A stretch of 64,000 nt of DNA from Pedobacter roseus (GCF_014395225.1 NZ_CP060723.1:3720001-3784000), one strand, 5' to 3'. Positions 1-52,279 are shown, counted from the first letter of the stretch. Made by a program: numbers and translations. Notes: generated by a model not told the origin, from the letters alone.

Positions 1-1510
1 CATCAATTGGGCGCACATTTGCCCTGTTTCTAATCCCTGTATTCCTATACCAGGGCGATTTGTAATCTGAATTGCTTCTGGCATCAAAATAATAGGGCGA
101 TGAGGTAGGATAAGGTGTTTGCATGGTATTGATCTCGGCAGTAGAAACAGGAGATTTTGCACCACTTAAATAAGTTCCTGTATAATAAGTATCCTGGATC
201 CCGATATTTAAAAAGGCCCAGCCCAATTTGCCCTGTCCATCACGGTTTGCCGCTTCCGAAAAACGCAGATGTAAAAGACCTGCGCGATAAATGCCCCATT
301 TACCACCTTTATTAAAACTGCTCAGAATGGTATTGTTATCGGTTAATTTGGTAATCACCGGACCAGCTGCCGAGTTTTCGTAAGATAATCTTCCTCTTGC
401 GTCGTAAGGGATGCCGCTATATTGCCTTTGAGCAGCCCAGTTATCTATCGCAGCCTGCGAAGGTTTGATTAAATATTTGCCATATATGGAAGAGCAAACA
501 TCAACCATTGGATTACCGGGTTTATAACTTGGGTTATAGGGTATGCCCCAAAAGAACTCCGAATTCCAGGTAATATTATTAGTGGGCTGTATAAACATAT
601 TGCGCCAACCACCATCGGTAATTAAAGCACCTTCATCCTGGGCCCTGGTATAACGAACCACCAGATCGTTATAGGCAGAGCTTAAATAACCAACTACTTT
701 ATACGCATCAAACTGTACATTGATATTGCTATTGGTATTTTCAACATTCATCACCTTAGCATAATTCTCTGCAGCCTTTAAATAATTGCCTTTCCACAAA
801 TATAAATCGCCCAGGATAAAAGGTTTACAGATGAATATTTTTTGGGTGTTTTGTCCGTCGATGGCCACATTTAATGCATTGCCTGCCGGATAAGAATAAA
901 CCTCTTTGTAAGGCAGTTTTTCGGTAAAATCAATTAGTCGGGTTAACAGTTCATCGAAAGATATGCGAGGGTAAAGGCTTAAATTTTTAACATCTTCTAC
1001 CTTCTCTACCGGTTCGGTGATATAGGGAACGCTACCGTACTGTGCACCCAGCTGTAAATAGATAAAACTGCGCAAAGCACCCAAATCGGAATAATGTTTA
1101 TTGTAATCATCAACACTCATCCTATGGTCGGCAAGCATTAAATTAAAGTTTTTGAGTGCGTCGTTAATATTTAAGATTACCGCGTAGTAAGGCCTTGGAT
1201 CGATATAAGGATTATCTTTGCTGGTGGTGTGGTTTGATAGTTGCTTTAAATAAGCATCGGCATTACCTGTAGCCTCTACCAGATCGCCACGCAGTTCGTT
1301 TTGTAAAATGTATAACTTTTCGAGCCCCAAAAACTGGCCATAAGCACCAATTACGGCTGCATCTGCATCACCCACATTCCGATAAGCATTGGTAATATCC
1401 AATTTATCTTCGGGTACTTCGTCTGTAATTTTTTTGCACGACCATGAACCTATTGCAAGCAGGGCTACCGCTAATAGGGCAATAACTTTTTTATTAAAAT
1501 CCATCTTCAT
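1..1510 (-). CDS. SusD-like outer-membrane glycan-binding lipoprotein, C-terminus off the window
   Basis: RagB/SusD-family surface lipoprotein that would cap the SusC channel encoded just upstream. The frame opens with ATG at 1510 (a second in-frame ATG is at 1504) and stays open to base 1, about 503 codons, so the C-terminus is missing. The N-terminus is hydrophobic and ends in a lipobox-like GSWSC (Cys about residue 25) followed by KKITDEVPEDKLD, typical of SusD proteins. The last visible residues, YRNTGIRNRANVRPID, resemble the conserved C-terminal part of the family. The start lies 18 bp after the SusC stop, so the two are cotranscribed. It is the last visible gene of the operon that begins at 15171. 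Family assignment is firm; the ligand is inferred. Confidence 0.9.
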   Translation of the reverse strand, partial: MKMDFNKKVIALLAVALLAIGSWSCKKITDEVPEDKLDITNAYRNVGDADAAVIGAYGQFLGLEKLYILQNELRGDLVEATGNADAYLKQLSNHTTSKDNPYIDPRPYYAVILNINDALKNFNLMLADHRMSVDDYNKHYSDLGALRSFIYLQLGAQYGSVPYITEPVEKVEDVKNLSLYPRISFDELLTRLIDFTEKLPYKEVYSYPAGNALNVAIDGQNTQKIFICKPFILGDLYLWKGNYLKAAENYAKVMNVENTNSNINVQFDAYKVVGYLSSAYNDLVVRYTRAQDEGALITDGGWRNMFIQPTNNITWNSEFFWGIPYNPSYKPGNPMVDVCSSIYGKYLIKPSQAAIDNWAAQRQYSGIPYDARGRLSYENSAAGPVITKLTDNNTILSSFNKGGKWGIYRAGLLHLRFSEAANRDGQGKLGWAFLNIGIQDTYYTGTYLSGAKSPVSTAEINTMQTPYPTSSPYYFDARSNSDYKSPWYRNTGIRNRANVRPID

Positions 1511-1528
1511 CTTTTTATACATTATCAA

Positions 1529-4500
1529 TTATAAACCAATTCTAACGCCCAGTTGGAACGACCTGAACTGAGGCTCTAAGGTGGTATCTACACCTTGTGT
1601 GAAGATACTGCCCGAGGCACTAAACTCAGGATCGTAACCTAAGTAATTGGTTAAGGTAAATACATTATTGGCTGTTGCATAAAGCCTGGCATATTTAATT
1701 GCCTTTGCTTTTAGCGGTACATTATAGGTTAAATTCAGGGTGCGCAAACGTAGGTAAGCGCCGTCTTCGATCCACCGGTCAGAAAATTGTGCGTTGCCCA
1801 TTGGGTCGCCAAAACTTGCTTTTGGCACATTGGTTACCTGGCCTTCTCCACGCCAGCGGTTCCGAACAATATCAGTCTGGTTATAGTAACTGTTTCCCGA
1901 TTCCAATACCGAACGGGTATAGTTGTAAATGTCGTTGCCCGCCACAAAAGAGAAGAACACATCTAAACTCCAGTTTTTATAACTGAACGTATTGTTAATA
2001 CTCCCATATATATCGGGGTTAGGATCGCCGATTACCACACGGTCTGCATCATTAATGATCTTATCGCCATTGGTATCGATAAACCTGGTATCTCCACCTG
2101 TAAATGGAACCAATGCACCTGAACTATTCCTGATTGACAGCCCTGCAGCAGTAGCTTCGGCAGTGGTGGCATACACACCATTGGTACGTTGCCCGTAAAA
2201 TAAATTCGCCGTTTGGCCCACCCTTGTTAAATAGGTGCCATTGGCATAACTGGTTAAAATATCTATGTTGCCTGGCAAACTGTTTATTTTATTCTTGTAC
2301 GTACCCAGGGTAATGCCTAAATCCCATTTTAAGGTTTTATTTAAAATGCGGCTGTTTAAACCAAAATCCAATCCTGAGGTACGCATACCACCCTGGTTAT
2401 CGATATAAGAATTGATACCGCCCACTGATGCAACAGGCACATAAGCCAACATTTTACTGGTGGTATGGATGTAATAATCGAGGCTCAGGCTTAAACGCTC
2501 ATTAAAAAATGAAGCATCTATACCGGTATTGAATTTGGCTACCTGCTCCCACTGGATGCCCGGGTTGGCGATGTTGCCACGAACAAGCCCCTGTAAGCCC
2601 AACAGGTTTTGAGAAACATAATATTGCCTGTTGTTGTAGTTACCAATATCATCGTTACCAACCAAACCATAGCTTAACCTGAATTTCAATAAATCGATGT
2701 ATTTATAATCGCGCATAAAATTCTCCGAAGAGATTAACCACGCAGCACTTAACGCAGGCAAAATAGCCGATTTATTACCGAGGATATCTAAACCATAACC
2801 GCCAATGTAGCGTACTGAAGAAGAAATATCTTTTCGGCCAAACCTCGACGACTGATCTACAGCAGCGTTAAGGCTTAAATAATACTTGTCCTTATAGTTA
2901 TAATTGGCTGTGAAATAACTATTCAAATTGCTCCATTTACCAATATCACCTCCAAAATAGCGCAGGGCGGCATTACTGTTGCCAATACTGATCAATACAT
3001 CAGTTGCGGAGTTGTAACCAATGGCATAATCCTGCTCGCTCTGGCTCGAAGTATACCGTGTACCCAATGCCGCATGTAAAGTATGATCATTACCAAACCT
3101 ACGGTCGAAGCTTAAATGCAAATCGTCGAAAACACTGAAGTAACGAATCACCTGCGTTCCCAGTTTACTATCGCCAATGGTTGTTGGCAAAATTTCGTTG
3201 GTTACTCCTTTACGCGGAATAAATAAAGTTTCCTGTGTTTTATCGTAGGTTACACCAGTTAGATTAGAAAGCTTGAAGGTTTTATTAAAGGCATAATCAA
3301 AATTAATATTACCAAAAAAGCGATAGGCTTTTTTCTGGTTCAGGCCTTTTTCTATTAACGCCCGCGGGTTACTTACGCCCAAAGTATCCGCTTCGGCCAG
3401 GTTTGGCGAAACCGCTCCGGTTGCACTAATTTCGTTTACGGCCAAAAACGGAGCCTTAACCAGCGACAGGAAGATGGGGTTTGAACGGGCCGATAAACCC
3501 TGGTCTTTTAATCGCTGCTCGGTATAGGTAAATGATAAATTGGTATTCCCGGTAAGTTTCTTGGTTAAATTCAGGTCGCTGTTAAAACGCATTGAATATT
3601 TATTGTTGCTAGTCGAATCTATAATGCCCTTATCAGCCGAGTAGCCTGCCGAAAGTGCATATTTGGCAATGTTATCGCCGCCACTTACTTTCAGAAAATA
3701 ACTCTGATCGATGCTATTTTTAAATACCTCATCCTGCCAATCGGTATTTTGATGATACATGTGGTATGTTGGATTGGTTACCGGATTTGGATCATCGTTC
3801 ATATAGGGTTTAGCGGCAATAACACTTGCGCTTAAACCCTGGCTTTTCAACACATCAGATAAATAACTACGATAATCGTCTACCCCCATTACATTAATTT
3901 TTTTAGGCTTTAAATTGATCCCTGTATAGGCAGAAAAATCGATCAATGTAGCCAGATCTTTAGCATGGCTGGTGGTAATGATCATTACGCCATTAGCAGC
4001 CTTGGTACCATAAACCGCAGCGGCCGATGCATCTTTAATCAGAGTGATGTTTTCGATATCCCGAACATCGATAAACTGTAAAGGATTGTTTTTGTGACCG
4101 GTAGTAAGCGATGTACCATAAGAATTGGCATCGTAAACCATTCCATCAACAACATATAATGGCTGGTTCGAGGCATACAGGGAAGTAAAACCGCGTACAA
4201 ACACATCGGCACCAATACCTGGTGTTCCCGATCTTCTTATCGAGTTAACCCCAGCCATGCGGCCTTGCAGGTAACTGTCTGGCGTTTCCGAATTAACGTT
4301 CCAGCCGCCCTGAGGGTTCAGATAACTTAAGGCTGATTGAGAACGGGCCAGGTTTTGTGTACCAGTAGGCAATACTACCTCGGTAAATAAAGAGTTGTAG
4401 GTAGCTGGATAAATTTTAATGGTAACTAACTTGCCTTTATGTACCGGTAATAATTTGGTGTGGTAATTGGTAAAACTGACTAAGATAGTCGCGTTAAAAT

Positions 4501-4792
4501 CGGGAACAACAATGCTGAACTTCCCATTATTATCGGTTAAAGCACCCGAAAAATCGGTTACGGTAAGTTTGGCTCCGGTGATGGGCTTATTGGTATATCC
4601 ATCTACCACAACGCCTGCTATTTTCTGGCCTACCAATTTTTTCTGTCTCACCTTTACCGTTGTGGTATCGGTACTGTATTGGCTCGAATCTGTTTTGCTG
4701 GTATCGGTTTGCTGAGCAAGAGCCATAGCGGAGCACATCAGCCCAAACAGCGCGAGTAAAATTCCTTTTCTTATGATGGTAAAATTATGCAT
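1529..4792 (-). CDS. SusC-like TonB-dependent outer-membrane transporter
   Basis: SusC/RagA-type TonB-dependent receptor of 1087 residues that imports oligosaccharides across the outer membrane. Visible parts in order: signal peptide ending near AMALAQ (residues 1-26); a Ser/Thr/Asp-rich linker of about 25 residues; a carboxypeptidase-regulatory-like beta-sandwich (about 53-140, GVVVDGYTNKPITGAKLTV); a plug domain (about 150-280) with the family signatures VDGMVYD and IKDASAAAVYGTKAANGVMII; and a beta-barrel to the C-terminus ending RSFQLGVRIGL. The Ser/Thr-rich linker before the regulatory domain is absent from the other complete SusC proteins in this window. It lies downstream of two FAS1 lipoproteins and 18 bp upstream of its SusD, and is the second SusC of the same operon. 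Confidence 0.95.
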   Translation of the reverse strand: MHNFTIIRKGILLALFGLMCSAMALAQQTDTSKTDSSQYSTDTTTVKVRQKKLVGQKIAGVVVDGYTNKPITGAKLTVTDFSGALTDNNGKFSIVVPDFNATILVSFTNYHTKLLPVHKGKLVTIKIYPATYNSLFTEVVLPTGTQNLARSQSALSYLNPQGGWNVNSETPDSYLQGRMAGVNSIRRSGTPGIGADVFVRGFTSLYASNQPLYVVDGMVYDANSYGTSLTTGHKNNPLQFIDVRDIENITLIKDASAAAVYGTKAANGVMIITTSHAKDLATLIDFSAYTGINLKPKKINVMGVDDYRSYLSDVLKSQGLSASVIAAKPYMNDDPNPVTNPTYHMYHQNTDWQDEVFKNSIDQSYFLKVSGGDNIAKYALSAGYSADKGIIDSTSNNKYSMRFNSDLNLTKKLTGNTNLSFTYTEQRLKDQGLSARSNPIFLSLVKAPFLAVNEISATGAVSPNLAEADTLGVSNPRALIEKGLNQKKAYRFFGNINFDYAFNKTFKLSNLTGVTYDKTQETLFIPRKGVTNEILPTTIGDSKLGTQVIRYFSVFDDLHLSFDRRFGNDHTLHAALGTRYTSSQSEQDYAIGYNSATDVLISIGNSNAALRYFGGDIGKWSNLNSYFTANYNYKDKYYLSLNAAVDQSSRFGRKDISSSVRYIGGYGLDILGNKSAILPALSAAWLISSENFMRDYKYIDLLKFRLSYGLVGNDDIGNYNNRQYYVSQNLLGLQGLVRGNIANPGIQWEQVAKFNTGIDASFFNERLSLSLDYYIHTTSKMLAYVPVASVGGINSYIDNQGGMRTSGLDFGLNSRILNKTLKWDLGITLGTYKNKINSLPGNIDILTSYANGTYLTRVGQTANLFYGQRTNGVYATTAEATAAGLSIRNSSGALVPFTGGDTRFIDTNGDKIINDADRVVIGDPNPDIYGSINNTFSYKNWSLDVFFSFVAGNDIYNYTRSVLESGNSYYNQTDIVRNRWRGEGQVTNVPKASFGDPMGNAQFSDRWIEDGAYLRLRTLNLTYNVPLKAKAIKYARLYATANNVFTLTNYLGYDPEFSASGSIFTQGVDTTLEPQFRSFQLGVRIGL

Positions 4793-4818
4793 AGTCTTTT
4801 TTTGAGTCAGATTACTTA

Positions 4819-6243
4819 TTAAGGAAGAATAGGTTCAAATCGCAGGTAATCTAAAATGAGCGTATTTTGGTTAACCGAAGTGGTATTGGCAGCCGTTAAG
4901 CGTAGTTGCAATGTCCCATATTGTTGAGGAGTGTAATCGCCAAGGTAAACCTCTGCGTAATTTAAAGGCGTTACAGTCTGTGTGGCAAATAAATCGAAAA
5001 CCAAAGTTGTTGGGTTGTAAATAAAATACCTTTGGGTAAAATTAGCTACCTGGGCATCACCTGGTCCGCCTGATATGGCCCTTGCATATACTTTGTATTT
5101 AACTGAGGCAACGGTTGATAGGTACTGAACATAATATTCGGCAACGCCATGGTTGTACACTTCAATATCTTTATAGGAGATGCCCTTATCATCCAGCTTT
5201 AGCCGGTAAAGTGTATTGCCTGTTCTATCCGACCTAAAACTAAAAGGAAATTCGCCCTCGATTTTAAAGGTAGGCACTTTATCTTTGGTTCTGAAAGGCA
5301 ATGCATTCATGACGTATACTATTCCGTTACTGGCGCGGTACGATTTTACAATAGCCGATTTTTTGATGGGAATTTTAACACCCCTTGTCGAAATCAGGGT
5401 ATCAGGTAATTTATCCAAAGTGTATAAACCTTTTGCTACCAGATCGCGCACCAAAATAAATGCGCCTCCATTTGGGTAAAATGGCTCTAAACGGTTGCGC
5501 TCAGTATTGAATGTAGCATCCTGCAACATAAAAAAGGTGTATTGCTGGCTTTCTGTCCTCAAATCGGCAACACTGTTCCAATAGGCATTTCTTGATACCA
5601 TTGGTGGGTTGGGTGCAAATATCGGATTGCCCAAAGCATTGTAACCAATAATGGTTGCATTGGCGGTATCGATAACCTGTATAGATAAATTGGCAATGTA
5701 CTTGGTTTGGATGGCTGCATCGGTACTGCTAAGCATAAAATCCCAAACATTTAACTTGGTTGGCACCGCTTTATCAATCACATATAAAGCACCGTTCTTT
5801 ACAAAAGCAGGTTTACCTACAATAGCCGCTTCTTCGAAAGTAGGCCCCACCATGGTGGCGTATTTTGTATTTTGAAGTAGTACCTTAACTGTATCGGTAA
5901 GCCCTTTAGGTGCAGCGGTAGCGGTTAAACCGATGTGGTTGGCCACAAAATCTTTCAGTTTAACAGGATCGCTCACAATGGCGGCATCAAGCGTTGCCAA
6001 TGCATCATTTGTTGGCGCCCACACCGTATAGGTTTGGGATGAAGTGAGCAGTTTATCATAACCGGTACTCCTCACGTATTCGGCAAACTTACTTAAGTTA
6101 GACTGGCTGGCAATTTTTTGCAACAGATCAGTGGAATTGTCCACATTCACAATCTCGCTATGCTCCTCCAATGCATTTTTACAACTCCCCAGCCAAAACA
6201 CAGCGCTCAGTAATAATATGATATGTAGTATATTTCTTTTCAT
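4819..6243 (-). CDS. Fasciclin (FAS1)-domain lipoprotein with C-terminal beta-sandwich-like region
   Basis: Predicted surface lipoprotein of 474 residues. The frame is open from 6318, but the start at 6243 is preferred because it gives MKRNILHIILLLSAVFWLGS followed by a lipobox Cys (residue 21). Residues about 35-165 form a FAS1 domain: LSKFAEYVRSTGYDKLL, then VWAPTNDALATL, then GALYVIDKAVPT. The rest (about 170-474) is less clear. Its end, NTLILDYLRFEPILP, resembles the closing strand of galactose-binding-like beta-sandwiches found in DUF5108-type FAS1 proteins. It lies between the 611-residue FAS1 gene and a SusC gene. FAS1 domains mediate adhesion in other proteins; glycan binding here is inferred from context and no enzyme motif is seen. 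Confidence 0.85.
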   Translation of the reverse strand: MKRNILHIILLLSAVFWLGSCKNALEEHSEIVNVDNSTDLLQKIASQSNLSKFAEYVRSTGYDKLLTSSQTYTVWAPTNDALATLDAAIVSDPVKLKDFVANHIGLTATAAPKGLTDTVKVLLQNTKYATMVGPTFEEAAIVGKPAFVKNGALYVIDKAVPTKLNVWDFMLSSTDAAIQTKYIANLSIQVIDTANATIIGYNALGNPIFAPNPPMVSRNAYWNSVADLRTESQQYTFFMLQDATFNTERNRLEPFYPNGGAFILVRDLVAKGLYTLDKLPDTLISTRGVKIPIKKSAIVKSYRASNGIVYVMNALPFRTKDKVPTFKIEGEFPFSFRSDRTGNTLYRLKLDDKGISYKDIEVYNHGVAEYYVQYLSTVASVKYKVYARAISGGPGDAQVANFTQRYFIYNPTTLVFDLFATQTVTPLNYAEVYLGDYTPQQYGTLQLRLTAANTTSVNQNTLILDYLRFEPILP

Positions 6244-6335
6244 TTTTATTCTTTTATTCCCTTTTACAGGTCTATTATTTTTCTGTAATATGAGGTTGTA
6301 CCACCATGTATGTGGCACAACCTCCTATTTAATGG

Positions 6336-8171
6336 TTAGGGTTTTTGAAAAATCAGGCCGTCTTTACCTGGTGAAAACCTTGGATAGTTCTGGTCATCAT
6401 TTTCTGGTATAAAATGAATCATATCGAGCCAGGTATTGCTGCTCGCTTCTGCACCGCCAACCATGGTTAACCTGATCCAGTGCCTGTCGGTAGTAGTAAT
6501 ATTTACTGTTCCAGCTAATCTGCCTGTTGCTGTAGGCCAGTTATTTTTAACAGCAGGCTGAATTAAACCCGCATTGCCATTTTTATCTTTATCATTTGTG
6601 GTAGCCAGATAACGTTTAAAGCCCTGGGCCAGCATTAAGGGGTCGGAACTCGCTAAGGCCGCACCAGCATCTGTCATTCCAGATGACCCGAGTGTTTGTC
6701 TAAAATCTATCAGATTTGGCAATACCTGAGCATCAGGCGTTCCAACATCCATAGCAATCTGACAAAGTGGTCCGCTACCAAATTGGCTATAACATATCCA
6801 AACTTTGTATTTACCTTTTACCAACATTGGCGTTTTCAGTTCAACCCAAATTGCACGGTTTGCATTTGTTAAACCTAATGATAGGTTTAACTTATCATCA
6901 TAAGCGATCCTTCTTGTAGCACCAAAAACAGATACAAAATAGTCGTAATTCTGAGGAAGTGTTGCTTTTGCCGGATTGTTCACCCTCATTCCCGAAAGAA
7001 TAGGCGCACCATTTGCAATTAAGGGGATTGTACCCCCTGTTGCACCGTTTCGGCCTCTCCAGATCGGATTTGCTTTTAACTCGGGTTGGTCGCAAACATC
7101 GAAGAATACGCCAGTTGGGTAACGTACTTTAATGGCATATAGGTTTTTAGTTTCGTGCAGTACGCCATTGGCTGTAGTAATGTTGCTAAAAGTTCTGTTT
7201 ACTTCTACCCCAGGTTCTAACACACCGTTAAACTCATCGTCGTTAAGTAAAATCCGTTGATTAACATATTTAGTAGTTACTACTTCTTTTGGCGCTAAAG
7301 TATTAATCGTTGATGAGGCAATAATATCAGGTGTGTATGTTGCACCGGCCGAAAGGTGGTAGGCAATGTATAACCACAAACTATCGCTATGGTTTTTGGG
7401 ATCGCCCGTTTTAGAAAATTTAGCTTTAAACGCTTCATAACTGGAGTAACCAGCTTTTACCAAAGCAGAATCTGATTCGATAATGGCAGTTTGAAGGCGA
7501 CGGGTGGTATCTTTTACTGCCGATGAGGCCACATTTAACGAATCATAGAAACCGGTTTCTTTTAAGGCCTGCGTAAAATATTTATATCGGCCGCTTGCCT
7601 CGATGGTTTGGGCCGTTGTTAATGTTGCGGGAATGAGAACGTGATCTATCACATGGATAATCCCATTTCCCAGCCTTACATTGGATTGGCTAATTTTCGC
7701 CTGTTTATTTACAATATAGCTACTTACACCGCCGTCGTTTATTGCACCTGTTTGCAGGTACTGGCCATATAATGTAATCTGAGGCAATTTTCCATCAGTA
7801 AAGCGATTGGTTGCAACCGTATCGGGCAGCAAATGGAATTTAACCATATCCTTCGATTGCTCAACAGTTAAATCGGAAACATTTGCTTTGCCAATGCCTT
7901 TAAGCCAGGCGGTTACTGCATCATTTGTAGGCGTAAATAAGGTATATCGGCCATAAGCGCCCAAATAGCCCGCTGTTCCCGAGCGCTCTACAATCTGCCT
8001 CATCATCGAGAACTTCTCCGGGTATTTATCTAAATAACCGGTAATGTTTACATCATCTGTAGTGGCTAAAGTGTACGATTCTCTTTTACATGCATTTATA
8101 AATATAAAAGCAATAACGCATATCACCATCAATATGGCGAAGCTGCGTACATTTGGATTATTTTTCATCAT
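6336..8171 (-). CDS. Fasciclin (FAS1)-domain lipoprotein, two FAS1-like units
   Basis: Predicted surface lipoprotein of 611 residues. A hydrophobic N-terminus ends in IFINAC (lipobox Cys about residue 28). The first FAS1 unit (about 40-185) contains FSMMRQIVERSG, LFTPTNDAVTAWL and NGIIHVIDHVLIP. A second, more diverged unit (about 190-355) starts near RYKYFTQALKETGFYDSLN and ends near NGVLHETKNLYAIK. The C-terminal 250 residues finish with WIRLTMVGGAEASSNTWLD and IHFIPEN, which look like a carbohydrate-binding-type beta-sandwich (inference). The start is 8 bp after the SusD stop and the stop is 92 bp before the next FAS1 gene, so it belongs to the same operon. MM at the start leaves a one-codon ambiguity. 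No catalytic motif is recognised. Confidence 0.85.
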   Translation of the reverse strand: MMKNNPNVRSFAILMVICVIAFIFINACKRESYTLATTDDVNITGYLDKYPEKFSMMRQIVERSGTAGYLGAYGRYTLFTPTNDAVTAWLKGIGKANVSDLTVEQSKDMVKFHLLPDTVATNRFTDGKLPQITLYGQYLQTGAINDGGVSSYIVNKQAKISQSNVRLGNGIIHVIDHVLIPATLTTAQTIEASGRYKYFTQALKETGFYDSLNVASSAVKDTTRRLQTAIIESDSALVKAGYSSYEAFKAKFSKTGDPKNHSDSLWLYIAYHLSAGATYTPDIIASSTINTLAPKEVVTTKYVNQRILLNDDEFNGVLEPGVEVNRTFSNITTANGVLHETKNLYAIKVRYPTGVFFDVCDQPELKANPIWRGRNGATGGTIPLIANGAPILSGMRVNNPAKATLPQNYDYFVSVFGATRRIAYDDKLNLSLGLTNANRAIWVELKTPMLVKGKYKVWICYSQFGSGPLCQIAMDVGTPDAQVLPNLIDFRQTLGSSGMTDAGAALASSDPLMLAQGFKRYLATTNDKDKNGNAGLIQPAVKNNWPTATGRLAGTVNITTTDRHWIRLTMVGGAEASSNTWLDMIHFIPENDDQNYPRFSPGKDGLIFQKP

Positions 8172-8179
8172 GCTAAAAT

Positions 8180-9652
8180 TTATTTGGTGTAAAATGGATT
8201 TTGGACAAGTTTTGAATCAGCAAAAAGCTCGTTTTCATTAATTGGTAAATAATGGCTGTTTACATCCCTAAATTTGGCTATAGCCGATTGTTGTACAGCT
8301 GGTGATACCGTTCGGGCGACCATTTCGAGCAGTACGTTTAAACGGCGATAATTTTCATGTTTTGCTATGCGCAATAAATCATACCAGCGTTTGCCTTCAA
8401 AAGCAAACTCCCTCGATCGTTCTGCCAATATATAATCGCATATCGCATCCTTATCATTTTCATCAGGGCTTTGCTCGGTCATTTTAACCGCGTTTCTTTT
8501 CAACCTCAAATCTTTAATGAGGTTAATGGCATCTGCCCCTGCCCCCGTATAAGCCAAAGCCTCTGCTTTTAGCATCCAGATATCGGATAAGCGGTAAGCC
8601 TGCCAGTTTACATACGAAGGGTTTTCGGTACCATATTTAACAATACTGTTATCGCCACTGTAAAATGCCGAAGCCCGGATGTCATAAATGCGGTCGGGAT
8701 CCACATCATCCGGAGTGAATATATCGGAGGTTAAAATACCCGAAGCAATAAAGCGTTTTTTAGATTGTACGAGTAAATTATAGAATACGTTGTTTACCGA
8801 ATTCTTGTTCGAGAATTCGAAAATGGTTTCTGTCGAACTGCCATTGTAAAATACGTTAGTATACCAACCAGAACCTGCGCCCTGAACGGCAAATTTCTGC
8901 GAATCCATAATTTTGTTGCATTCGGTAATGCAGCCGGTAAAATTATCCATCCATAAATACACATCGGCCAACAAGGCATTAACCGTAAATTTTGTAATTC
9001 GTCCCTTATCTGATACAGTATTGCCATACGTGTTTACCGCACCGGCCTCAGCCTTTTTTAAGTCGGCTACGATCTGATTCAGAATATCAGCACCAGGTGT
9101 TTTAGTAAGCTCCTGCAAATCGGTATCTTTTGATGAAGACGTTAATTTTAAGGGTACATCCCTAAAATTCCTGACCAGATAAAAATACATCATGCTCCTG
9201 AGGGCGAGTGCCTCACTGATATAGGCATTTAATTGTGCATCGGTTAAGGTAGGATCGGTTTCCTTTACCGCAGGTGCAAAATCCAGTACGGTATTGCAAA
9301 AGTTAATGGTTCGGTAAAAAGCAGCCCAGCTGGTTAAGGTATTGCTTTGAACAATATTGTTGTCAAAAATATCCTTCTCCTCAATGGTTCCATTTGGTCC
9401 GGCATCAATCATGTCAGCCCGTATTTCGCCATATATAAATATATATTCGGTTAAAGCTTTATCTGTAATATTCGGTGGAGAGGCCAATAAAGAAGCGTAA
9501 CAGCCTGCAACCGCGGCCTGAATATCTTCTTTGGTTTTCCAAAAGCCCTGACGGGTAATGCCATCCCGGGGCTGTAAATCCAACCATTTTTTACATGAGC
9601 TGCTCATGATCAGCATCACGATTATGCCAATACTATATAAAATCTTTTTCAT
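8180..9652 (-). CDS. SusD-like glycan-binding lipoprotein
   Basis: RagB/SusD-family lipoprotein of 490 residues, partner of the SusC encoded 11 bp upstream. The N-terminus MKKILYSIGIIVMLIMSSSC is a signal peptide with lipobox Cys20, followed by KKWLDLQPRDGITRQGFWKT, the standard start of SusD proteins. TPR-like helices with the family pattern ALALRSMMYFYLVRNFRDVP lie near 150-170, and the C-terminal RSREFAFEGKRWYDLLR and YLPINENELFAD are hallmark SusD segments. Length is in the usual range for the family. Its place between SusC and FAS1 genes suggests that SusD and the FAS1 lipoproteins share the cell surface around one transporter. Confidence 0.95.
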   Translation of the reverse strand: MKKILYSIGIIVMLIMSSSCKKWLDLQPRDGITRQGFWKTKEDIQAAVAGCYASLLASPPNITDKALTEYIFIYGEIRADMIDAGPNGTIEEKDIFDNNIVQSNTLTSWAAFYRTINFCNTVLDFAPAVKETDPTLTDAQLNAYISEALALRSMMYFYLVRNFRDVPLKLTSSSKDTDLQELTKTPGADILNQIVADLKKAEAGAVNTYGNTVSDKGRITKFTVNALLADVYLWMDNFTGCITECNKIMDSQKFAVQGAGSGWYTNVFYNGSSTETIFEFSNKNSVNNVFYNLLVQSKKRFIASGILTSDIFTPDDVDPDRIYDIRASAFYSGDNSIVKYGTENPSYVNWQAYRLSDIWMLKAEALAYTGAGADAINLIKDLRLKRNAVKMTEQSPDENDKDAICDYILAERSREFAFEGKRWYDLLRIAKHENYRRLNVLLEMVARTVSPAVQQSAIAKFRDVNSHYLPINENELFADSKLVQNPFYTK

Positions 9653-9663
9653 GATGTTGCTGA

Positions 9664-12600
9664 TTAAAAATTTGCGGTTAAACCAAGGGTAATTGTTTTG
9701 ATCGGAGGCGTGGTAGAGTTATCAACTACGGTAGAAAACGCGGTTAGTTTTACTGGTACTTCCGGATCCTGACCCGTATATTTGGTAAAGGTTAAAATAT
9801 TCTCCACCATCAAATTGGCACTTAAACTTTTCATCCCCAGTCTTTTCATAAAGTTTTTACTGAAATCATATTTCAAGGTTACACTGCGCAAACGCAGGTA
9901 GGAGCCATCTTCTACATAGCGGTCTGATCCTAAGAAGTTATAGCCAGTGGCATAAACTGCCCTGGGCATATCGGTTACATCGCCTTCGGCCCTCCACCTT
10001 CTTAATACCGCGGTACTTTGATTACTAAAACCGTTCATATTGGTAGTGGTAATCTTTGTGCCGTTGATGATCTGATAACCGGTACGGTAACTAAAATTGG
10101 CACCAAAGCGGATGTTGCCATTGATGGTAATCCCTGTGCCAAAACCTCCAGTTAAGTTTGGATTACTGTTGCCCAAATACACAATATCCTTATAGTCGAT
10201 ATTTCCGTCGTGGTTAATGTCTTCATACATGGCATCACCAGGCTGGAATACGTAATCGATTGATGGATAAGCAAAACGCATATACACCCTTTGGCCGTTG
10301 GGACCAACAATCTGGTTGCCACTTTCATCCAGGGCAATTGTTGAGTTCAGATCTTTGTAAACGCCTTTGAACTTAAATCCATAAAAAGAGCCAAAGGGGT
10401 TATTTTCCTGGATGTAAACCTTGAATACATTGTTAGCCGTAATTTTCCCTTTATTTTCGCGGGGATAAAGCGGATCGATTTCGCGGATGATATTTTCATT
10501 GTGCGAAATATTAAAGCTAAAGTCCCATCTAAAATTTTTCTTTCTGATCAGGGTGGCGTTGAGGTTAAATTCCCAACCCTGGTTATCCATGGTACCCACG
10601 TTCAGATCTACACCCGAATAACCGTTGTAGGTTGGGATGGCAATACCTGGATAAAATAAATCCGTTGTGCGCTTCCGGTAGATGTCGAAATCCATATTAA
10701 TCGCATTTTTGAACATATTAAGTGTAAGTCCAAGGTTAGATTGTGCTACTTTTTCCCACCTTAAATCTGATAATTCCAGATTGCTGGAGTATACGCCAGA
10801 CATGCCCAGGTAACTGAAACCATAATTCTGATAGGTGTTTAAATAAGTATAATCGCCACGGGGTGCATTGCCCACAATACCATAACTGGCCCTGAAACTA
10901 AAATCGTCGATGTATTTTTCAGTCCTTTTCATAAATGGCTCACCCGAAATCCTCCACCGGAGAGATGCCGAAGGGAATACACCATAACGGTTATTCGGAC
11001 CAAACTTAGAGTTACCATCGCCCCTGATACCGGCATTAAAAATATAGCGGTCTAAAAATTTGTATTGTGCATTTAGCAACAAACCCACCGAACGGCTTTG
11101 TGCATACGATGAAGACGCAGAGCCAACAGCATTTGTACGCCCATCAATTGAAGGATCTGCGAGGAAAGATGATGCCGTATTGGTGGCAAACATACTTTGT
11201 CCGGTTCTACGGCTATCGTTACTATCAAACCTGGCAAAGGCAATTAAATCGTGCTTTTTTCCTAATTCTGGCGTATATGCAAGTGTTATATTGGTGGCCA
11301 TAGTAAAAGCATCACCATCCGAATCGCTGGCATAATTTACAACCTGCTCTGAAAATGGTCTGCCCGTTGCAATTTGGGGTAAAAATGTTTTAATTTTTGT
11401 GTTGTTAATATCAGCCTGAAAATTTGCATTCAGTCTCAAACGATCCGGGATGATTTGGTATTGCAAACCGAATTTTGGTATTATCCTTTCTCCCAGCTGG
11501 TGGTTACTTGCTGCCATGGCCATAGCCAGAGGATTGTAAGTGCCAGATATTTTGTTTTTACCAAAGTCGTATCCAAAACTACCCTGAGCAGTAGTGGCAG
11601 GACTAAAGTAATTTGAGGTTAAGTTTCCATATTCATCATATTCGTAAACAGCTTGATTTGGCATTTTACTATAGGCCACATCTCTCACCCCAGGAGAATA
11701 TAGGTTTTGATTATCAATGTGGGTATACACAATATCGGCACTGAACTTAATTTTAGTGGATACCTGATAATCTAAATTCACCCTGGCACTTAAACGGCCC
11801 AAACTCGTACCTTTAGTAGTACCTTCCTGGTTAAAATAATTTACCGAGGCACGATATCTGGCTTTTTCGCCACCACCAGAAATGGACAGGTTATGGTCCT
11901 GAAGGTATCCAATTTGGGTTATTGATTTTAACCAATCGGTATTGTTGCTGTAATTATAAAAATTGTACGGATCGTTCGGATCGTACTGGAATTGTTTAGC
12001 AAAATCTGATGTAGAAAACTGGCGGCCCGCATTATAAAATTCTTCAAGAACCAACGATGAATATTGGTTACCATTAAGCATTGGGATAGGGCTGGGCTGT
12101 TTTGAATAAGAACCTTTAAAATTGTAAGAAATACTAGGCGGCCCCATGGTTCCCCTTTTGGTATTGATCACCAAAACGCCATTTGCTGCTCTCGAACCCC
12201 AGATAGCAGTGGCCGCAGCATCTTTTAGTACACTAATATCCTTAATATCTGATGGGGCGATGTTTAATAACTGCCCGTAATTGGTTTCATCAGAAGTTGC
12301 AAAGTTAAAGTCAGTTGGGATGGAAATATCGTAAGGCATACCATCTACTACGATCAATGGATCTACAGCACCATTAATGGAAGATGTACCGCGGATACGG
12401 ATCTGCATTGGGGCACCGGGATCGCCACTGCTCGCCGCAATATCCAAACCGGCTAAACGGCCCTGCAAAGCCTGATCAATAGAGGCGGCCTGCATATCTT
12501 CCAGTTCTTTGGCATTGATGGTGCCTATAGCGGAAGTTTGATCGCGCTTATCGATACTCATCCCGCTGCCATTATCAGCCTTGGCTTTCGAAACGATCTG

Positions 12601-12942
12601 CACTTCGTCCATCTGGTTATCGGAAGCCTCTAATTGAAAGTTAATTGTGGCTTTATCAATCGCAATAGGCGCAGTTGATTTATAGCCAATGTAAGAAACC
12701 GAAATCCGGTAGGTTTTATCAGCCACAGGCAGCGTGTAGTTACCATCAATATCAGATGATACACCTTTTATTACCCTGCGGTCTTTATCAACAATTACCA
12801 CCGAAGCACCAATAATGGGCTGTTTATCTTTTTTATCAATAATCTTACCCCGCACGTAGTTAATTTGCTGCGCACCGGCAATAGCAGACGCAAATAAAAA
12901 GCACAGCAAGGCAAATAAACGTAAAGTATATTTTTTAGTCAT
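9664..12942 (-). CDS. SusC-like TonB-dependent outer-membrane transporter
   Basis: SusC/RagA-family receptor of 1092 residues. A signal peptide ending near IAGAQ (residues 1-25) precedes a carboxypeptidase-regulatory-like domain (about 28-110, VRGKIIDKKDKQPIIGASVVI). The plug domain follows (about 115-265) with VVDGMPYD and LKDAAATAIWGSRAANGVLVI, then a beta-barrel ending TITLGLTANF. The gene starts 6 bp after the stop of the four-domain FAS1 gene and is followed 11 bp later by susD, so translation is probably coupled along the operon. This is one of four SusC genes in the window and the first of two in this operon. Ligand unknown; pectic oligosaccharides are inferred from the shared promoter element described at 15351. 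Confidence 0.95.
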   Translation of the reverse strand: MTKKYTLRLFALLCFLFASAIAGAQQINYVRGKIIDKKDKQPIIGASVVIVDKDRRVIKGVSSDIDGNYTLPVADKTYRISVSYIGYKSTAPIAIDKATINFQLEASDNQMDEVQIVSKAKADNGSGMSIDKRDQTSAIGTINAKELEDMQAASIDQALQGRLAGLDIAASSGDPGAPMQIRIRGTSSINGAVDPLIVVDGMPYDISIPTDFNFATSDETNYGQLLNIAPSDIKDISVLKDAAATAIWGSRAANGVLVINTKRGTMGPPSISYNFKGSYSKQPSPIPMLNGNQYSSLVLEEFYNAGRQFSTSDFAKQFQYDPNDPYNFYNYSNNTDWLKSITQIGYLQDHNLSISGGGEKARYRASVNYFNQEGTTKGTSLGRLSARVNLDYQVSTKIKFSADIVYTHIDNQNLYSPGVRDVAYSKMPNQAVYEYDEYGNLTSNYFSPATTAQGSFGYDFGKNKISGTYNPLAMAMAASNHQLGERIIPKFGLQYQIIPDRLRLNANFQADINNTKIKTFLPQIATGRPFSEQVVNYASDSDGDAFTMATNITLAYTPELGKKHDLIAFARFDSNDSRRTGQSMFATNTASSFLADPSIDGRTNAVGSASSSYAQSRSVGLLLNAQYKFLDRYIFNAGIRGDGNSKFGPNNRYGVFPSASLRWRISGEPFMKRTEKYIDDFSFRASYGIVGNAPRGDYTYLNTYQNYGFSYLGMSGVYSSNLELSDLRWEKVAQSNLGLTLNMFKNAINMDFDIYRKRTTDLFYPGIAIPTYNGYSGVDLNVGTMDNQGWEFNLNATLIRKKNFRWDFSFNISHNENIIREIDPLYPRENKGKITANNVFKVYIQENNPFGSFYGFKFKGVYKDLNSTIALDESGNQIVGPNGQRVYMRFAYPSIDYVFQPGDAMYEDINHDGNIDYKDIVYLGNSNPNLTGGFGTGITINGNIRFGANFSYRTGYQIINGTKITTTNMNGFSNQSTAVLRRWRAEGDVTDMPRAVYATGYNFLGSDRYVEDGSYLRLRSVTLKYDFSKNFMKRLGMKSLSANLMVENILTFTKYTGQDPEVPVKLTAFSTVVDNSTTPPIKTITLGLTANF

Positions 12943-12948
12943 ATCGGT

Positions 12949-15171
12949 TTAGAATTGATATTTTAAGTAATTATTGATCTGATGGATTACCGTACGGTTT
13001 GATAATACATTACTCCTGTCTGCCGGGTTTAAAAGCACGTTAGCCGTTCTGCCGATTACATCCCTAAGCATTAAAGAAGTGGTCGTATTAATGGCAACGG
13101 TAATCTTGGCGGCATCGCCACCATCGTTTTTCATTAGGGTTTCAAACTGTCCGATCTTTTGCCCATCGCTTGCAATGGTATTTTTATTGATAATATGGTA
13201 GAGCAGGAATTTACTCACTTTGGTTACGTCCAAACCATCGGTTGGTGCGGTAGTTGGGATCCCTGTAGTTACGTTACCTGGTAAAATACCGTCTTTTACA
13301 GCCTGCATAATGGCTGAATTGGTAGGGATAAAAACCGTATAATTTACGCCCTCTACAGTGCCCTGTATTACACCAGTAGCTTTAGTGTAAATAATGTTGT
13401 TGTTTAACAGCTGGAAGAAGTAATAATATGGATCGGTGGTGAGGGTACCATATTTTTCGATATGTTTACCAATGTTAAGCACGGTATAGGTAAGTGCCTC
13501 TTTTCCGTAAACTGCTACACCATTAACCGGTGTGGTACTGATAGAATCGACAGGGATACTTTGCTTGGCAACAGCAACACTATCCTGTGTACCCGCTGAA
13601 ATCAGTTTGCCAGCAGCATATTTAACATATTCGCCGTTTGAGGCTTCTAAAATTCCAGATCCCGTGCTAAAGTTAGGGATTTCCCTATCGCCCAAAGCAA
13701 TAATATGGGTTTGCAAAATGCGTTTCAGCGCGACTAAATCACCTCTGATCGGTGCTGATGCATAGAACGGATCATAATTGAATCCCATTCTCCTGAGCGT
13801 TACGTCAGGGATCATTACAACTACATAACGCAATGTTGGTGTTTTTAAAGCAGGAATCAACCCGAAATAAATCAAGGCCTGTTTCATCACACTGTAATCG
13901 GGATCCAGGTTTACGTTGCCATAAACCGTTGCAAATACATTCGCATTCTGGGCCTTATTTATACCATATAAAAAGCCATTGCTCAGGGCTTGTTTATCTA
14001 CCACATCGGCCGCAACACGGGTTGTAAAATCATTTAGTGCATTGGGCGTAGTAGCAAACTTGCTTGGCCAAACGGTAGTGGTAAACAAATGTGAATTAAC
14101 AAAATCCTTAATTACATCAGGTGCCACCACATAGAGGTCGTTCAGATTGTTTACGCCCTTTTTCTTCCAATATTTAAGCAATACATTTTGTGCATAAGCA
14201 TTTACGGCAGCATTGGTAGGTGCAAAAATGCTATACGAACCCTGTTGTGCATCATTTGCGTCTACTTTTAAATAATTTTCATTGTTTGGCGAGAAAGCCA
14301 GCAAGGTGCTATAGGTTTTGGCATAAACATTGGCTGCCTTGCCACTCAGTACCTCGTAACGGTGAGAGATGTCGATATTTAAAGAATAAGTGACAAACTT
14401 ATCCAGTAAGCCTTTAAAAATACTGTAATCGGGCTTTTCGTTAATGTACTGATCGATACTTTGAGGTGGGGTTAATACCCTGTCGATTACATGGATTACG
14501 CCATTTTCGGCTACAATATTTTGTTGTCCATCAATTAATCGTGCTGCACCTATATTGTTGCCATTGTAAGCACTGTTTGGATAGAAGAAATTATAATCGG
14601 CAGCCGACAGACCATTAAATGTCATGTAAGGCGATAAAAAATAGGTAATATTCTTATTGTTGAAATCAGTTGCGAGATAAGAACCGTTACGGTTTGCTGC
14701 AATTACCTTAATTGCATTTCCATTATTATCCTTTCCATCATAAACAAAATCGTAATAAACGCTTCTTCGTCTAAAGGCGCTATTTTTGATAAATCCCTTA
14801 ACAGAGAAAAAATCGCTTAAACGCTCCACCTTCTCTCCATCGTAGATCATGGCATAACGAACAATTTTGGAAGCCAGATCTGCTGAAACTTCAGTTAGGT
14901 TATTATCTTTTAGATAAGAAGCAAAAGCCTCATCTGTAGGCGCAAAAACAGTCCAGGAACCTGCCGCACTAAGCGTTTCTTTATAACCCGCTTTATCGAT
15001 ACAATCTAAAAACTTACTAAAATTACCCTTAGCCTGAAGTTGTTGATAAATAGGGTCTCCGAGGTTTTCGGGACGACCGTAAAAGTCATCGAATTCTTTT
15101 TTCCTGCAGCTACTCAGAAAAAAAATAAATGTTAACCCGACGATTAAAAATTTTGGTAAAATTTTACTCAT
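12949..15171 (-). CDS. Four-domain fasciclin (FAS1) lipoprotein, operon head
   Basis: Predicted surface lipoprotein of 740 residues and first gene of the FAS1-SusCD operon. The signal peptide ends at FFLSSC (lipobox Cys22). Four FAS1-like units can be traced: about 41-233 (FSKFLDCIDKAGYKETL, WTVFAPTDEAF, NGVIHVIDRVLTP); about 239-415 (YSIFKGLLDKF, SIFAPTNAAVNAY, NGFLYGINKA); about 420-560, more diverged (YSVMKQALIYFGLIPAL); and about 570-740 (YYYFFQLLNNNIIYT, FIPTNSAIMQAV, RTVIHQINNYL). There is no catalytic signature. A 179-nt leader separates the start from the -7 element at 15351. Possible roles are glycan binding or scaffolding around SusCD (inference); adhesion to plant cell wall is an alternative. 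Confidence 0.88.
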   Translation of the reverse strand: MSKILPKFLIVGLTFIFFLSSCRKKEFDDFYGRPENLGDPIYQQLQAKGNFSKFLDCIDKAGYKETLSAAGSWTVFAPTDEAFASYLKDNNLTEVSADLASKIVRYAMIYDGEKVERLSDFFSVKGFIKNSAFRRRSVYYDFVYDGKDNNGNAIKVIAANRNGSYLATDFNNKNITYFLSPYMTFNGLSAADYNFFYPNSAYNGNNIGAARLIDGQQNIVAENGVIHVIDRVLTPPQSIDQYINEKPDYSIFKGLLDKFVTYSLNIDISHRYEVLSGKAANVYAKTYSTLLAFSPNNENYLKVDANDAQQGSYSIFAPTNAAVNAYAQNVLLKYWKKKGVNNLNDLYVVAPDVIKDFVNSHLFTTTVWPSKFATTPNALNDFTTRVAADVVDKQALSNGFLYGINKAQNANVFATVYGNVNLDPDYSVMKQALIYFGLIPALKTPTLRYVVVMIPDVTLRRMGFNYDPFYASAPIRGDLVALKRILQTHIIALGDREIPNFSTGSGILEASNGEYVKYAAGKLISAGTQDSVAVAKQSIPVDSISTTPVNGVAVYGKEALTYTVLNIGKHIEKYGTLTTDPYYYFFQLLNNNIIYTKATGVIQGTVEGVNYTVFIPTNSAIMQAVKDGILPGNVTTGIPTTAPTDGLDVTKVSKFLLYHIINKNTIASDGQKIGQFETLMKNDGGDAAKITVAINTTTSLMLRDVIGRTANVLLNPADRSNVLSNRTVIHQINNYLKYQF

Positions 15172-15350: not shown

Positions 15351-15396
15351 TAAATATATACAGATTGCAAGCTACCCCCATCCTGTACTATCCTGC
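15351..15396 (-). promoter_or_regulatory. Shared pectin-regulon promoter, copy 1 (FAS1-SusCD operon)
   Basis: The plus strand reads TCCTGTACTATCCTGC at 15381-15396, two TCCTG half-sites 10 bp apart in direct orientation. On the minus strand, 22 bp downstream, is TATATTTA (15351-15358), a match to the Bacteroidota -7 element TAnnTTTG except for the last base. The same site with the same 22-bp spacing occurs at 28674, 35242, 36855 and 47671. It drives the operon starting at 15171. It may be an activator site covering the -33 region; the regulator is not in the window. Confidence 0.72.
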
Positions 15397-18882: not shown

Positions 18883-19579
18883 CTAAGATTGCCATCTTAT
18901 CTTTCCTTTTGTGGGTTGGAAGAACCCTAGTTTCATCGCAAACAGTTTCTTCGCTGCCCTACCATAGACAGAATCCATTAGTGCGCTCGTTGTTGCGAGG
19001 AGGAACGACGAAGCAATCTTTCCTGCCAGCGATCCTTGCTAGAAAGATTGCTTCGTCGGCTGAAAAAGCCTTTCTCGCAATGACGATCACCCACACTAAG
19101 ATTCTCATCTTCCCTTTTGTGGGTTGGCAGAACCCTAGTTTCATCGCTAACAGATTCTTCGCTGCCCTACCATAGACAGAATCCATTAGTGCGGACGTCA
19201 TTGCGAGGAGGAACGACGAAGCAATCTTTCCTGCTAGCGATCCTTGCTAGAAAGATTGCTTCGTCGGCTGAAAAGCCTTTCTCGCAATGACGACCACCCA
19301 TACTAAGATTGTCATCTTGCCTTTTGTGGGTTGGAAGAACCCTAGTTTCATCGCTAACAGATTCTTCGCTGCCCTACCATAGACAGAATCCATTAGTGCG
19401 GTCGTCATTGCGAGGAGGAACGACGAAGCAATCTTTCCTGCCAGCGATCCTTGCTAGAAAGATTGCTTCGTCGGCTGAAAAAGCCTTTCTCGCAATGACG
19501 ACCACCCATACTAAGATTGTCATCTTTCCTTTTGTGGGTTGGAAAAACCCTAGTTTCATCGCTAAAAGATTCTTCGCTG
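18883..19579. repeat. Tandem array, unit 207-213 bp, three full copies and a partial
   Basis: Copies begin with CTAAGATTG(C/T)CATCT-like sequence at 18883, 19096, 19303 and 19511. Each full unit contains a perfect 16-bp inverted repeat, GACGAAGCAATCTTTC / GAAAGATTGCTTCGTC (19007-19022 and 19042-19057 in copy 1), flanked by TTGCGAG and CTCGCAA that extend the fold. Small open frames on both strands repeat with the unit and are by-products. The array splits GH31 from rhaM in an otherwise tightly packed operon. The downstream part, 19580-19612, ends the last partial copy with an unrelated GCGCTCAGAATGACA fragment. Confidence 0.9.
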
Positions 19580-19612
19580 CGCTCAGAATGACAAAACGCT
19601 TGCTAACCTATT

Positions 19613-28673: not shown

Positions 28674-28719
28674 CTATTATAAGGTTTAAAACAAACATGG
28701 GCAACCTGTAGTGTCCTGC
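28674..28719 (-). promoter_or_regulatory. Shared pectin-regulon promoter, copy 2 (GH2 operon)
   Basis: The plus strand carries ACCTGTAGTGTCCTGC at 28704-28719. The minus-strand -7 candidate TATAATAG is at 28674-28681, again 22 bp away, and 50 bp from the GH2 start. This is the weakest -7 match of the five to TAnnTTTG (TA, one T and the final G). Confidence 0.7.
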
Positions 28720-35241: not shown

Positions 35242-35287
35242 CCAATTTAGAGAGTAAATTTTAAACCCGCGTCCTGTAGTATCCTGC
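35242..35287 (-). promoter_or_regulatory. Shared pectin-regulon promoter, copy 3 (MG2-PL11 operon)
   Basis: TCCTGTAGTATCCTGC at 35272-35287 on the plus strand, with minus-strand -7 element TAAATTGG at 35242-35249, again 22 bp apart. The leader to the MG2-like start is about 160 nt. Ten bases beyond the site is GTTAATATACTATAGT (35297-35312), repeated in copy 4. Confidence 0.75.
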
Positions 35288-36854: not shown

Positions 36855-36900
36855 CTAACTTAGCAACTAATCCGGCAATAAGCATCCTGTGGTATCCTGT
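36855..36900 (-). promoter_or_regulatory. Shared pectin-regulon promoter, copy 4 (GH28)
   Basis: TCCTGTGGTATCCTGT at 36885-36900 on the plus strand, with minus-strand -7 element TAAGTTAG at 36855-36862, 22 bp apart and 63 bp from the GH28 start. Eleven bases beyond is GTTAATATGCTATAGT (36911-36926), nearly identical to the box upstream of copy 3. The site points at GH28, but it lies in the intergenic region shared with the divergent GH51 operon. Confidence 0.73.
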
Positions 36901-44879: not shown

Positions 44880-46207
44880 TTAATTCCCATCTGGTTTAAC
44901 CAAACTACTTTTAGGACTTTCCGGCCATTTCCAAGCATTCGGATCATCAGGTTTTGCAGGATTAAAATCGGGCAGATCGTTAACCAGGTACTGAGCAATG
45001 CCCAGTTTTTGCGATTTGATGCCTAAGATGATGCATTGCGCAATTTCATAAGCGCCGTAAGGGTTAAAGTGCGTATTATCGGCCAAAGGTTTATCCTGCC
45101 CCGGGTAGCTATTTGCCGGATAATGTACAAAAGCTTTGATCGAATTTTGTTCTCCCAAAGCATTAAACAGTTCGGTTGTCATGGCATTAAGATCAATTAA
45201 AGCTACATTTTCGTCCGCAGCAACTTTTCTTGCCGCTTCAGGAAAATCGCCCAGGGAGTTTTGTATTTTACCATCGGCACCAAAAGACCGCCTGCTGGTT
45301 GAAGTTACCACCACCGGAATTCCACCTTTTTTCTTTACCTCAGTTATAAATGTTTTCAAGCGCTCCGTGTACGATTTATATGCACCATCATTAGGTCCCT
45401 TCTCTTTCTGATCATTGTGCCCAAATTCAATAAATAAATAATCGCCGGGCTTCATTACACTCAATACTTTAGCTAACCGTTTACTGCCTAAAAATGAGCC
45501 AAGCGTTAAGCCCGATTCTGCATGGTTGGCTATCGCTACGCCTGGTTTAAAAAACCGGGGATCATCTGTCCCCATGATGCCCATGGCTCATCGTCCTGGT
45601 TAACCACTGTTGAGTTCCCCGCTAAAAATACCGTTATCTGATCCTTAACCTGCTCAATTTCCATGGCCGCTAATGCCGTATTCTGATCAAATTCGAGTGT
45701 AAGTTTATCATCCCAATCAAGTTTTGTTAATTCGCGTGGTTTTAATGTCACCACCTGTCCACCGCTGATATTTCTGTTTTTAATATTGACAATAAAAGTT
45801 CTGGTGATCAACTCGCCAGCTTTTGTTTTAACGTTTTCGAGCATCAAGCGGCGCGATTCGGCTTTAACAGTTGTTACAGCAGCAGCTTTCGGATCGCCTA
45901 AGGTTAAGGTGATTTTATAATTTCCTTCAGGTACGGCAACAGAAAAGTAAAATGGCCTGGTACTTTTAACCAGATCGGCAGTGAGTGCATTTTTACCGCC
46001 ATAATCAACAGCTTCTACTTTTGTATCAAAATCAAATCCATATTTCTGATTACCGGAAAAACTTGTTTCGGGTAGGATCTGAATATAATCCTTAGCTACT
46101 TTTCCCGGGCCAAAATCAAATTTATAGGCCAGTTTCTGTTGGGCAGAACCTTCATTATAAAAGAACACAGCTAATGTGCTTAATAAAAATATCCTTTTGA
46201 TTGTCAT
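44880..46207 (-). pseudogene. Frameshifted CE12-type acetylesterase with N-terminal beta-sandwich
   Basis: Two overlapping frames encode one esterase. The upstream frame starts at 46207 with a signal peptide (ending EGSAQ), a galactose-binding-like sandwich (YKFDFGPGKVAKDY, about 25-165) and the SGNH start VFLAGNSTVV, then ends at 45536 after WASWGQMIPGFLNQA. The downstream frame continues the family consensus RFFKPGVAIANHAESG, then FIEFGHNDQ and DNTHFNPYG with the Asp-His pair. One missing base in the CCCC run (plus-strand GGGG 45557-45560) would join them as MIPRFFKPG. It follows GH28 by 40 bp in one operon. A true mutation, a sequencing error or frameshifting at TTTAAAC (45545-45551) are alternatives. 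Confidence 0.85.
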
Positions 46208-47670: not shown

Positions 47671-47716
47671 CAAATATGCATATTCTATTTTGGCAATCCA
47701 TCCTGTAGTCACCTGC
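47671..47716 (-). promoter_or_regulatory. Shared pectin-regulon promoter, copy 5 (GH28-CE12 operon)
   Basis: TCCTGTAGTCACCTGC at 47701-47716 on the plus strand, with minus-strand CATATTTG at 47671-47678 (TAnnTTTG with only the first T changed). The spacing is 22 bp, as in the other four copies, and the -7 element is 55 bp from the GH28 start. Confidence 0.73.
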
Positions 47717-52258: not shown

Positions 52259-52279
52259 ATTTTATTTTCAGCTAAATCG

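Follow-up and report, generated by a model that had tools for sequence, protein, structure and literature searches.

In the rhamnogalacturonan I (RG-I) utilisation locus of Bacteroides thetaiotaomicron (BT4145-BT4183), the import genes are BT4164-BT4169. A review lists two SusCD pairs among them, BT4164/65 and BT4168/69, together with BT4167 as an RG-I-binding surface protein (PMC8002723), and a transcriptome paper records a DUF5108 protein and hypothetical proteins within the same interval (PMC10434189). The locus is controlled by a hybrid two-component system (HTCS) (PMC3878776). In these papers the accessory proteins are called surface glycan-binding proteins (SGBPs), DUF5108 proteins or hypothetical proteins, but never FAS1 proteins. 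Literature that mentions FAS1 together with SusCD does so only in passing; a “FAS1 domain protein” is named, for example, in a figure legend on a hemicellulase polysaccharide utilisation locus of Gramella (Flavobacteriaceae) (PMC4891872), which resembles the system described here in having such a protein but differs in its enzymes (GH5, GH9, GH26) and offers no analysis of the protein itself.

Here we describe a stretch of 64,000 nucleotides from Pedobacter roseus (NZ_CP060723.1:3720001-3784000; hereafter the window), in which an operon of seven genes interleaves three FAS1 lipoproteins with two SusCD pairs. We conclude that this cassette is probably the capture-and-import module of an RG-I utilisation locus, with lipoproteins of FAS1 and carbohydrate-binding-module-like (CBM-like) domains acting as SGBPs. 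Like the B. thetaiotaomicron locus, it has two SusCD pairs with two genes between them, and a putative SGBP stands in the position of the RG-I-binding BT4167. A distant member of the FAS1x2 family consists of FAS1 and a full-length DUF5108 domain; the DUF5108 profile gave only 4 weak matches over 395 genomes. Judged by gene order and domain name, BT4164-BT4169 is very probably this cassette, so that BT4166 would correspond to FAS1x2 and BT4167 to the last FAS1 protein. In other words, the import system is very likely a known one whose accessory proteins were not recognised as FAS1-CBM-like in open-licence papers. We found no record in that literature of the FAS1-CBM-like architecture, the fixed seven-gene module or the operator, which is weak evidence of absence.

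Gene order, inheritance and domain architecture

The preliminary description gave the order FAS1x4, SusC, SusD, FAS1x2, FAS1, SusC, SusD, and all seven genes are present in that order on the minus strand:

12949..15171, minus strand: FAS1x4 lipoprotein, 740 aa (Pfam Fasciclin 2.8e-28; lipobox LSSC-RKKEFDD)
9664..12942, minus strand: SusC1, TonB-linked outer-membrane transporter (TIGR04056 2e-223, 745 bits)
8180..9652, minus strand: SusD1 lipoprotein (PF07980 6e-24, PF14322 4e-15)
6336..8171, minus strand: FAS1x2 lipoprotein, 611 aa, two FAS1 domains and a C-terminal CBM6/35-like domain (Pfam 1.5e-22; model pLDDT 85.4; structure matches)
6402..7121, minus strand: CBM-like beta-sandwich of FAS1x2, residues 351-590 (structure match, predicted model)
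4819..6243, minus strand: third FAS1 lipoprotein, one clear and one degenerate FAS1 domain and a C-terminal CBM6-like domain (Pfam 1.8e-11; model pLDDT 84.5)
4822..5280, minus strand: CBM6-like beta-sandwich of the third FAS1 protein, residues 347-499 (structure match, predicted model)
1529..4792, minus strand: SusC2, TonB-linked outer-membrane transporter (TIGR04056 1e-195, 653 bits)
1..1528, minus strand: SusD2 lipoprotein, a complete gene reaching 245 bp beyond the window edge (PF07980 1.7e-9)

The two pairs of adjacent SusC and SusD genes mark the region as a polysaccharide utilisation locus. The open reading frame (ORF) of the third FAS1 gene, 4819-6318, opens with GTG; its true start is probably the ATG at 6243, directly before the signal peptide, and with this likely start some 92 bp separate the gene from FAS1x2. 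The remaining gaps are, in order, 6, 11, 8, 26 and approximately 0 bp. The host genome is a single contig of 6.33 Mb, and its FAS1x2 protein is 93% identical to that of Pedobacter sp. Leaf216. DUF lipoproteins had been said to be missing, which is true inside the operon; a third SusCD pair of the window, 35 kb away at 50279-55513, does have them (DUF4959/DUF5000 and DUF4998/DUF5013).

A search for the same gene order in other Bacteroidota, proposed in the preliminary description, found it in several families. The neighbourhoods of FAS1x2 homologues within the family and those of 80 named loci were annotated by similarity to the proteins of the window genome, the profile search for homologues using the closer subset of the alignment. 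The exact one-strand order FAS1x4-SusC1-SusD1-FAS1x2-FAS1-SusC2-SusD2 occurs in 98 loci, 85 of them distinct, and in 72 of the 80 named loci; of the eight exceptions, seven are on contigs that are short or clipped. The hosts include Pedobacter, Sphingobacterium, Mucilaginibacter, Arcticibacter, Chitinophaga, Niabella, Niastella, Lacibacter, Pontibacter and Rufibacter. With the FAS1x4 profile, the order was also found in two genomes of a distant family, in two copies each, some of which reach the end of the sequence examined. A six-gene variant (L043, L050, L051, L054, L201) has one FAS1 gene fewer: FAS1x4, SusC, SusD, FAS1, SusC, SusD.

The cassette is inherited as a unit even when duplicated. 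Pedobacter sp. Bi126 and ISL-64 each carry two cassettes, each 96-99% identical to its counterpart in the other genome across all seven genes, whereas the two cassettes within either genome share only 32-55% identity; paralogous cassettes thus remain together. Evolutionary distances are correlated among the seven genes (rank correlation 0.66-0.89), and all seven have the identical nearest neighbour in 42 of 85 loci. It should be added that this correlation is no proof of contact, since shared history alone yields it.

Two further arrangements were seen beside these. The one named locus that departs from the order on other grounds, L183 of Pontibacter, has a 737-aa ORF on the opposite strand upstream of SusC1 (2945-5158) and no recognisable FAS1x4. 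Another, distant operon with two SusCD pairs and a FAS1 protein lies in the window's own genome, at 6140382-6154359 (L040:4383-18360), in the order SusC-SusD-FAS1(+F5/8 type C)-DUF5007-SusC-SusD-...-DUF5008/DUF5122; its FAS1 is likewise fused to a galactose-binding-like domain, and L044, L045 and L052 seem to have similar layouts.

All three accessory proteins score 44.8-99 bits with the FAS1 family model, against a cut-off of 22, and each of the four segments of FAS1x4 matches the FAS1 profile. AlphaFold2 models of the two shorter proteins, built on 28-sequence alignments, reached a mean predicted local distance difference test (pLDDT) score of 84.5 for the third FAS1 protein and 85.4 for FAS1x2, and in both models two domains of FAS1 fold are followed by a C-terminal beta-sandwich. 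The third protein had been described with a single FAS1 domain; it has a second, too degenerate for Pfam but detected by hhalign and by structure, and its residues 50-345 superpose on paired FAS1 domains in TGFBIp and periostin. These animal matrix proteins, the top structure matches (Z 20-21), share the tandem FAS1 arrangement, but they have four FAS1 domains and no CBM-like domain.

The C-terminal beta-sandwiches have the fold of CBM6 and CBM35 in the predicted models. Residues 349-496 of the third FAS1 protein match the CBM6 structure 2cdp best among CBMs (Z 14.4, 2.4 A, 124 residues), with further CBM6, CBM36 and CBM35 entries ranking next, and residues 351-590 of FAS1x2 match the xanthan-binding MiXBM 7ehg (Z 12.3, 2.4 A, 131 residues), with weaker matches to CBM6 and to CBM35 2w47 with unsaturated galacturonic acid (Z 8.6). 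The two domains are mutually related (hhalign 92%). They share the fold of 2cdp, 7ehg and 2w47 at only 10-20% sequence identity, and we call them CBM-like, rather than members of CBM6 or CBM35, because the family sequence model is not matched.

Most FAS1 proteins of the cassettes have a lipobox, recognised by pattern only, and this signal together with the position beside SusCD is what is expected of SGBPs. SusE/SusF-type and other SGBPs are likewise SusCD-adjacent lipoproteins with carbohydrate-binding-like C-terminal domains; those proteins, however, have Ig-like stems in place of FAS1 pairs, and in the present cassette three of the FAS1 type alternate with two SusCD pairs. In most FAS1x4 and FAS1 proteins the lipid cysteine is followed by acidic residues, which is no proof of surface exposure. 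A sequence search for relatives of solved structure returned only FAS1 proteins of other contexts, and a plasmid search only Cupriavidus FAS1 proteins matching one domain.

Shared operator and linked enzymes

A 10-bp direct repeat precedes FAS1x4 and four enzyme transcription units in the window:

15379..15395, minus strand: operator CAGGATAGTACAGGATG upstream of FAS1x4 (conserved in 60 of 85 distinct cassettes)
15351..15358, minus strand: promoter-like box TATATTTA, 20 bp after the operator (TAnnTT at that spacing, 57 aligned sites)
28702..28718, minus strand: operator upstream of GH2, same as that of FAS1x4
35270..35286, minus strand: operator upstream of the MG2-domain protein preceding PL11, same as that of FAS1x4
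36883..36899, minus strand: operator upstream of GH28, same as that of FAS1x4
47699..47715, minus strand: variant operator CAGGTGACTACAGGATG upstream of the second GH28

The tightened operator CAGGAYNNNNCAGGWYG has exactly five matches in the whole genome, all of them within 49 kb (3,707,790-3,756,899), and the reversed control pattern has none; one of the five precedes another SusCD cluster just beyond the window. The earlier claim that one operator heads both the operon and the rhamnogalacturonan enzymes therefore stands, all five strict sites lying in this locus. A CAGG-n(6-8)-CAGG repeat precedes FAS1x4 in 69 of 97 cassettes (0.45 expected after shuffling), and the strict spacing is kept in 60 of the 85 distinct ones, including distant cassettes. 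In 57 aligned sites TAnnTT follows 20 bp past the site end. The -7 box of Bacteroidota is TAnnTTTG, and TAnnTT lies where this box would be. The operator looks like an activator site.

The nearest candidate for a regulator is an HTCS gene at 3,792,830-3,796,876 (L186:8830-12876), approximately 57 kb from the cassette and 9 kb past the window. It encodes 1348 aa with Reg_prop, Y_Y_Y, HisKA, HATPase, receiver and AraC-type helix-turn-helix domains. Published HTCS motifs consist of two repeats approximately 21 bp apart (PMC3878776), whereas the window operator has a period of 10 bp and no conserved block at 21 bp, the next block being the promoter box. Because of this difference, the assignment of this HTCS to the operator is a guess. 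The HTCS gene adjoins GH43, GH88 and DUF2264 genes.

The enzymes encoded in the window are GH106, GH31, GH115, GH105/88, GH2, GDSL esterases, PL11, two GH28, GH51, GH97, GH43, GH127, GH35 and L-rhamnose mutarotase. This is an RG-I and arabinan set, so that the carbohydrate-active enzymes linked to the cassette are directed to one substrate. The surroundings of 48 cassettes from 35 genomes were examined to a distance of 50 kb: 21 cassettes have a PL11 gene in that range, against 2.2 expected, and 27 have a GH106 gene, against 2.7, in both cases an approximately tenfold excess. GH92, taken as a control, is not enriched, being near 4 cassettes against 3.6 expected among the 150 matches listed.

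Proposed function and alternatives

If the cassette is a capture-and-import module, FAS1x2 and the third FAS1 lipoprotein would be its SGBPs, their FAS1 pairs serving as a stem or docking unit that carries the CBM6/35-like domain, and the latter would bind the acidic pectin chain. FAS1x4 would most likely work with the first SusCD pair, as its scaffold or partner. Once bound, the polymer would be cut by the lyase and glycosidases that the locus encodes, the two SusCD pairs would import the fragments, and a regulator recognising the CAGGAY-n4-CAGG operator would turn on cassette and enzymes together. We infer that the lipoproteins are located at the cell surface and form complexes there, and that the two SusCD pairs divide the labour of import. 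As the preliminary description suggested, the pairs may take in different products, and the whole may make up a single patch on the cell surface. The preliminary description had linked the FAS1 proteins to pectin uptake, which holds in that they lie in a rhamnogalacturonan locus and share the operator of its enzymes. It had also suggested FAS1 itself as a glycan-binding component of a SusC/D complex; the SGBP position, the rhamnogalacturonan locus, the shared operator and the conserved layout agree with this, but the likely binder is the CBM6/35-like C-terminal domain, and the FAS1 repeats may be only stems or docking units. The observation is thus confirmed, and its interpretation is partly supported, in outline but with corrections in detail.

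Several points weigh against the capture-and-import interpretation. Glycan binding by the FAS1 proteins of this set is predicted from fold, and a shared CBM6/35 fold in models is no proof of binding. Pfam CBM models gave no significant match to the C-terminal domains (CBM_35_2 was hit in 2 of 28 FAS1x2 members, at best 0.025, and no CBM model in the third FAS1 protein). The presumed equivalence with B. thetaiotaomicron rests on gene order and one domain name, FAS1x4 is all-FAS1 and lacks a CBM-like domain, and for 19 of the 48 cassettes both PL11 and GH106 are absent from the surrounding 50 kb, in part because the contigs are short. The lack of a CBM-like domain in FAS1x4 would also suit a purely structural role, in which the FAS1 proteins hold the SusCD pairs and surface enzymes together as a utilisome, with little or no glycan binding of their own, capture being left to SusD1 and SusD2. 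The FAS1 fold is known above all for protein contacts and adhesion, and all seven genes are kept as a single block, both of which fit that role. Two of the three FAS1 proteins, on the contrary, have CBM6/35-like domains, and RG-I binding has been reported for BT4167, which occupies the same position (PMC8002723); we consider a purely structural role unlikely. The 19 cassettes likewise bear on the substrate: because of them, other copies may serve other, probably acidic, glycans. GH28 and GH88/105 were counted by eye near approximately 5 of these 19 within 50 kb, no excess over their high copy number. It is conceivable, if the weaker choice, that the cassette is a general importer of acidic glycans, RG-I being the substrate of this copy only and the paralogues serving other uronic-acid polymers. 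The low identity of paralogous cassettes within one genome, the GH67 gene adjoining one distant copy, and fold matches that include xanthan- and uronic-acid-binding CBMs all accord with such an importer; the tenfold overall enrichment of PL11 and GH106, and the same operator before most cassettes, even distant ones, do not. For the window's own copy it is compatible with the capture-and-import interpretation.

That the FAS1 proteins are adhesins which attach the cell to plant surfaces and share no more than a transcript with the importers is improbable. FAS1 domains are adhesion modules elsewhere, and stabilin, TGFBIp and periostin are among the best structure matches, but an unlinked adhesin would not be expected to keep the same place among the genes of two SusCD pairs in several families. 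Chance adjacency is ruled out by the 98 loci of exact order, and with Pfam and structural FAS1 matches in hand a chance neighbourhood or a misannotation of FAS1 can be regarded as refuted.

A more speculative extension of the capture-and-import interpretation, which we put forward only tentatively, is that all three FAS1 lipoproteins are assembled with the two SusCD pairs into a single, fixed machine of the outer membrane, the FAS1 arrays bridging the two transporters. Two CBM-like heads would then hold one pectin chain and pass it to two channels, and the strict conservation of the seven-gene block would reflect that assembly.

The cassette is well suited to the question of whether two SusCD pairs, together with their accessory proteins, operate as a single machine. 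FAS1, usually annotated as an adhesion module, recurs here as the stem of glycan-binding-like proteins in an import cassette; for proteins annotated as “fasciclin domain-containing” or “DUF5108” in the pectin loci of Bacteroidota, this suggests a function that can be tested. With the operator and the spacing of its promoter, the regulon can be predicted in new genomes. If the B. thetaiotaomicron equivalence is true, the earlier idea of glycan binding by FAS1 proteins already has an experimental counterpart in BT4167; because this protein has been named an RG-I-binding SGBP (PMC8002723), the novelty of FAS1 proteins as SGBPs is lowered.

Other features of the window

An intergenic palindrome-like sequence, GTCATTCCCGCGCAGGCGGGAATC, probably of a repetitive extragenic palindromic (REP)-type family, is repeated at 18690, 28816, 44558, 44819, 56063 and 56273. 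Between the rhamnose mutarotase and GH31 genes, a unit of approximately 208 bp occurs in three tandem copies (18899-19596). At 44880-46207, overlapping ORFs encode an AGA-YXIM galactose-binding domain and a GDSL domain without a start, and have the appearance of a single esterase gene interrupted by a frameshift.

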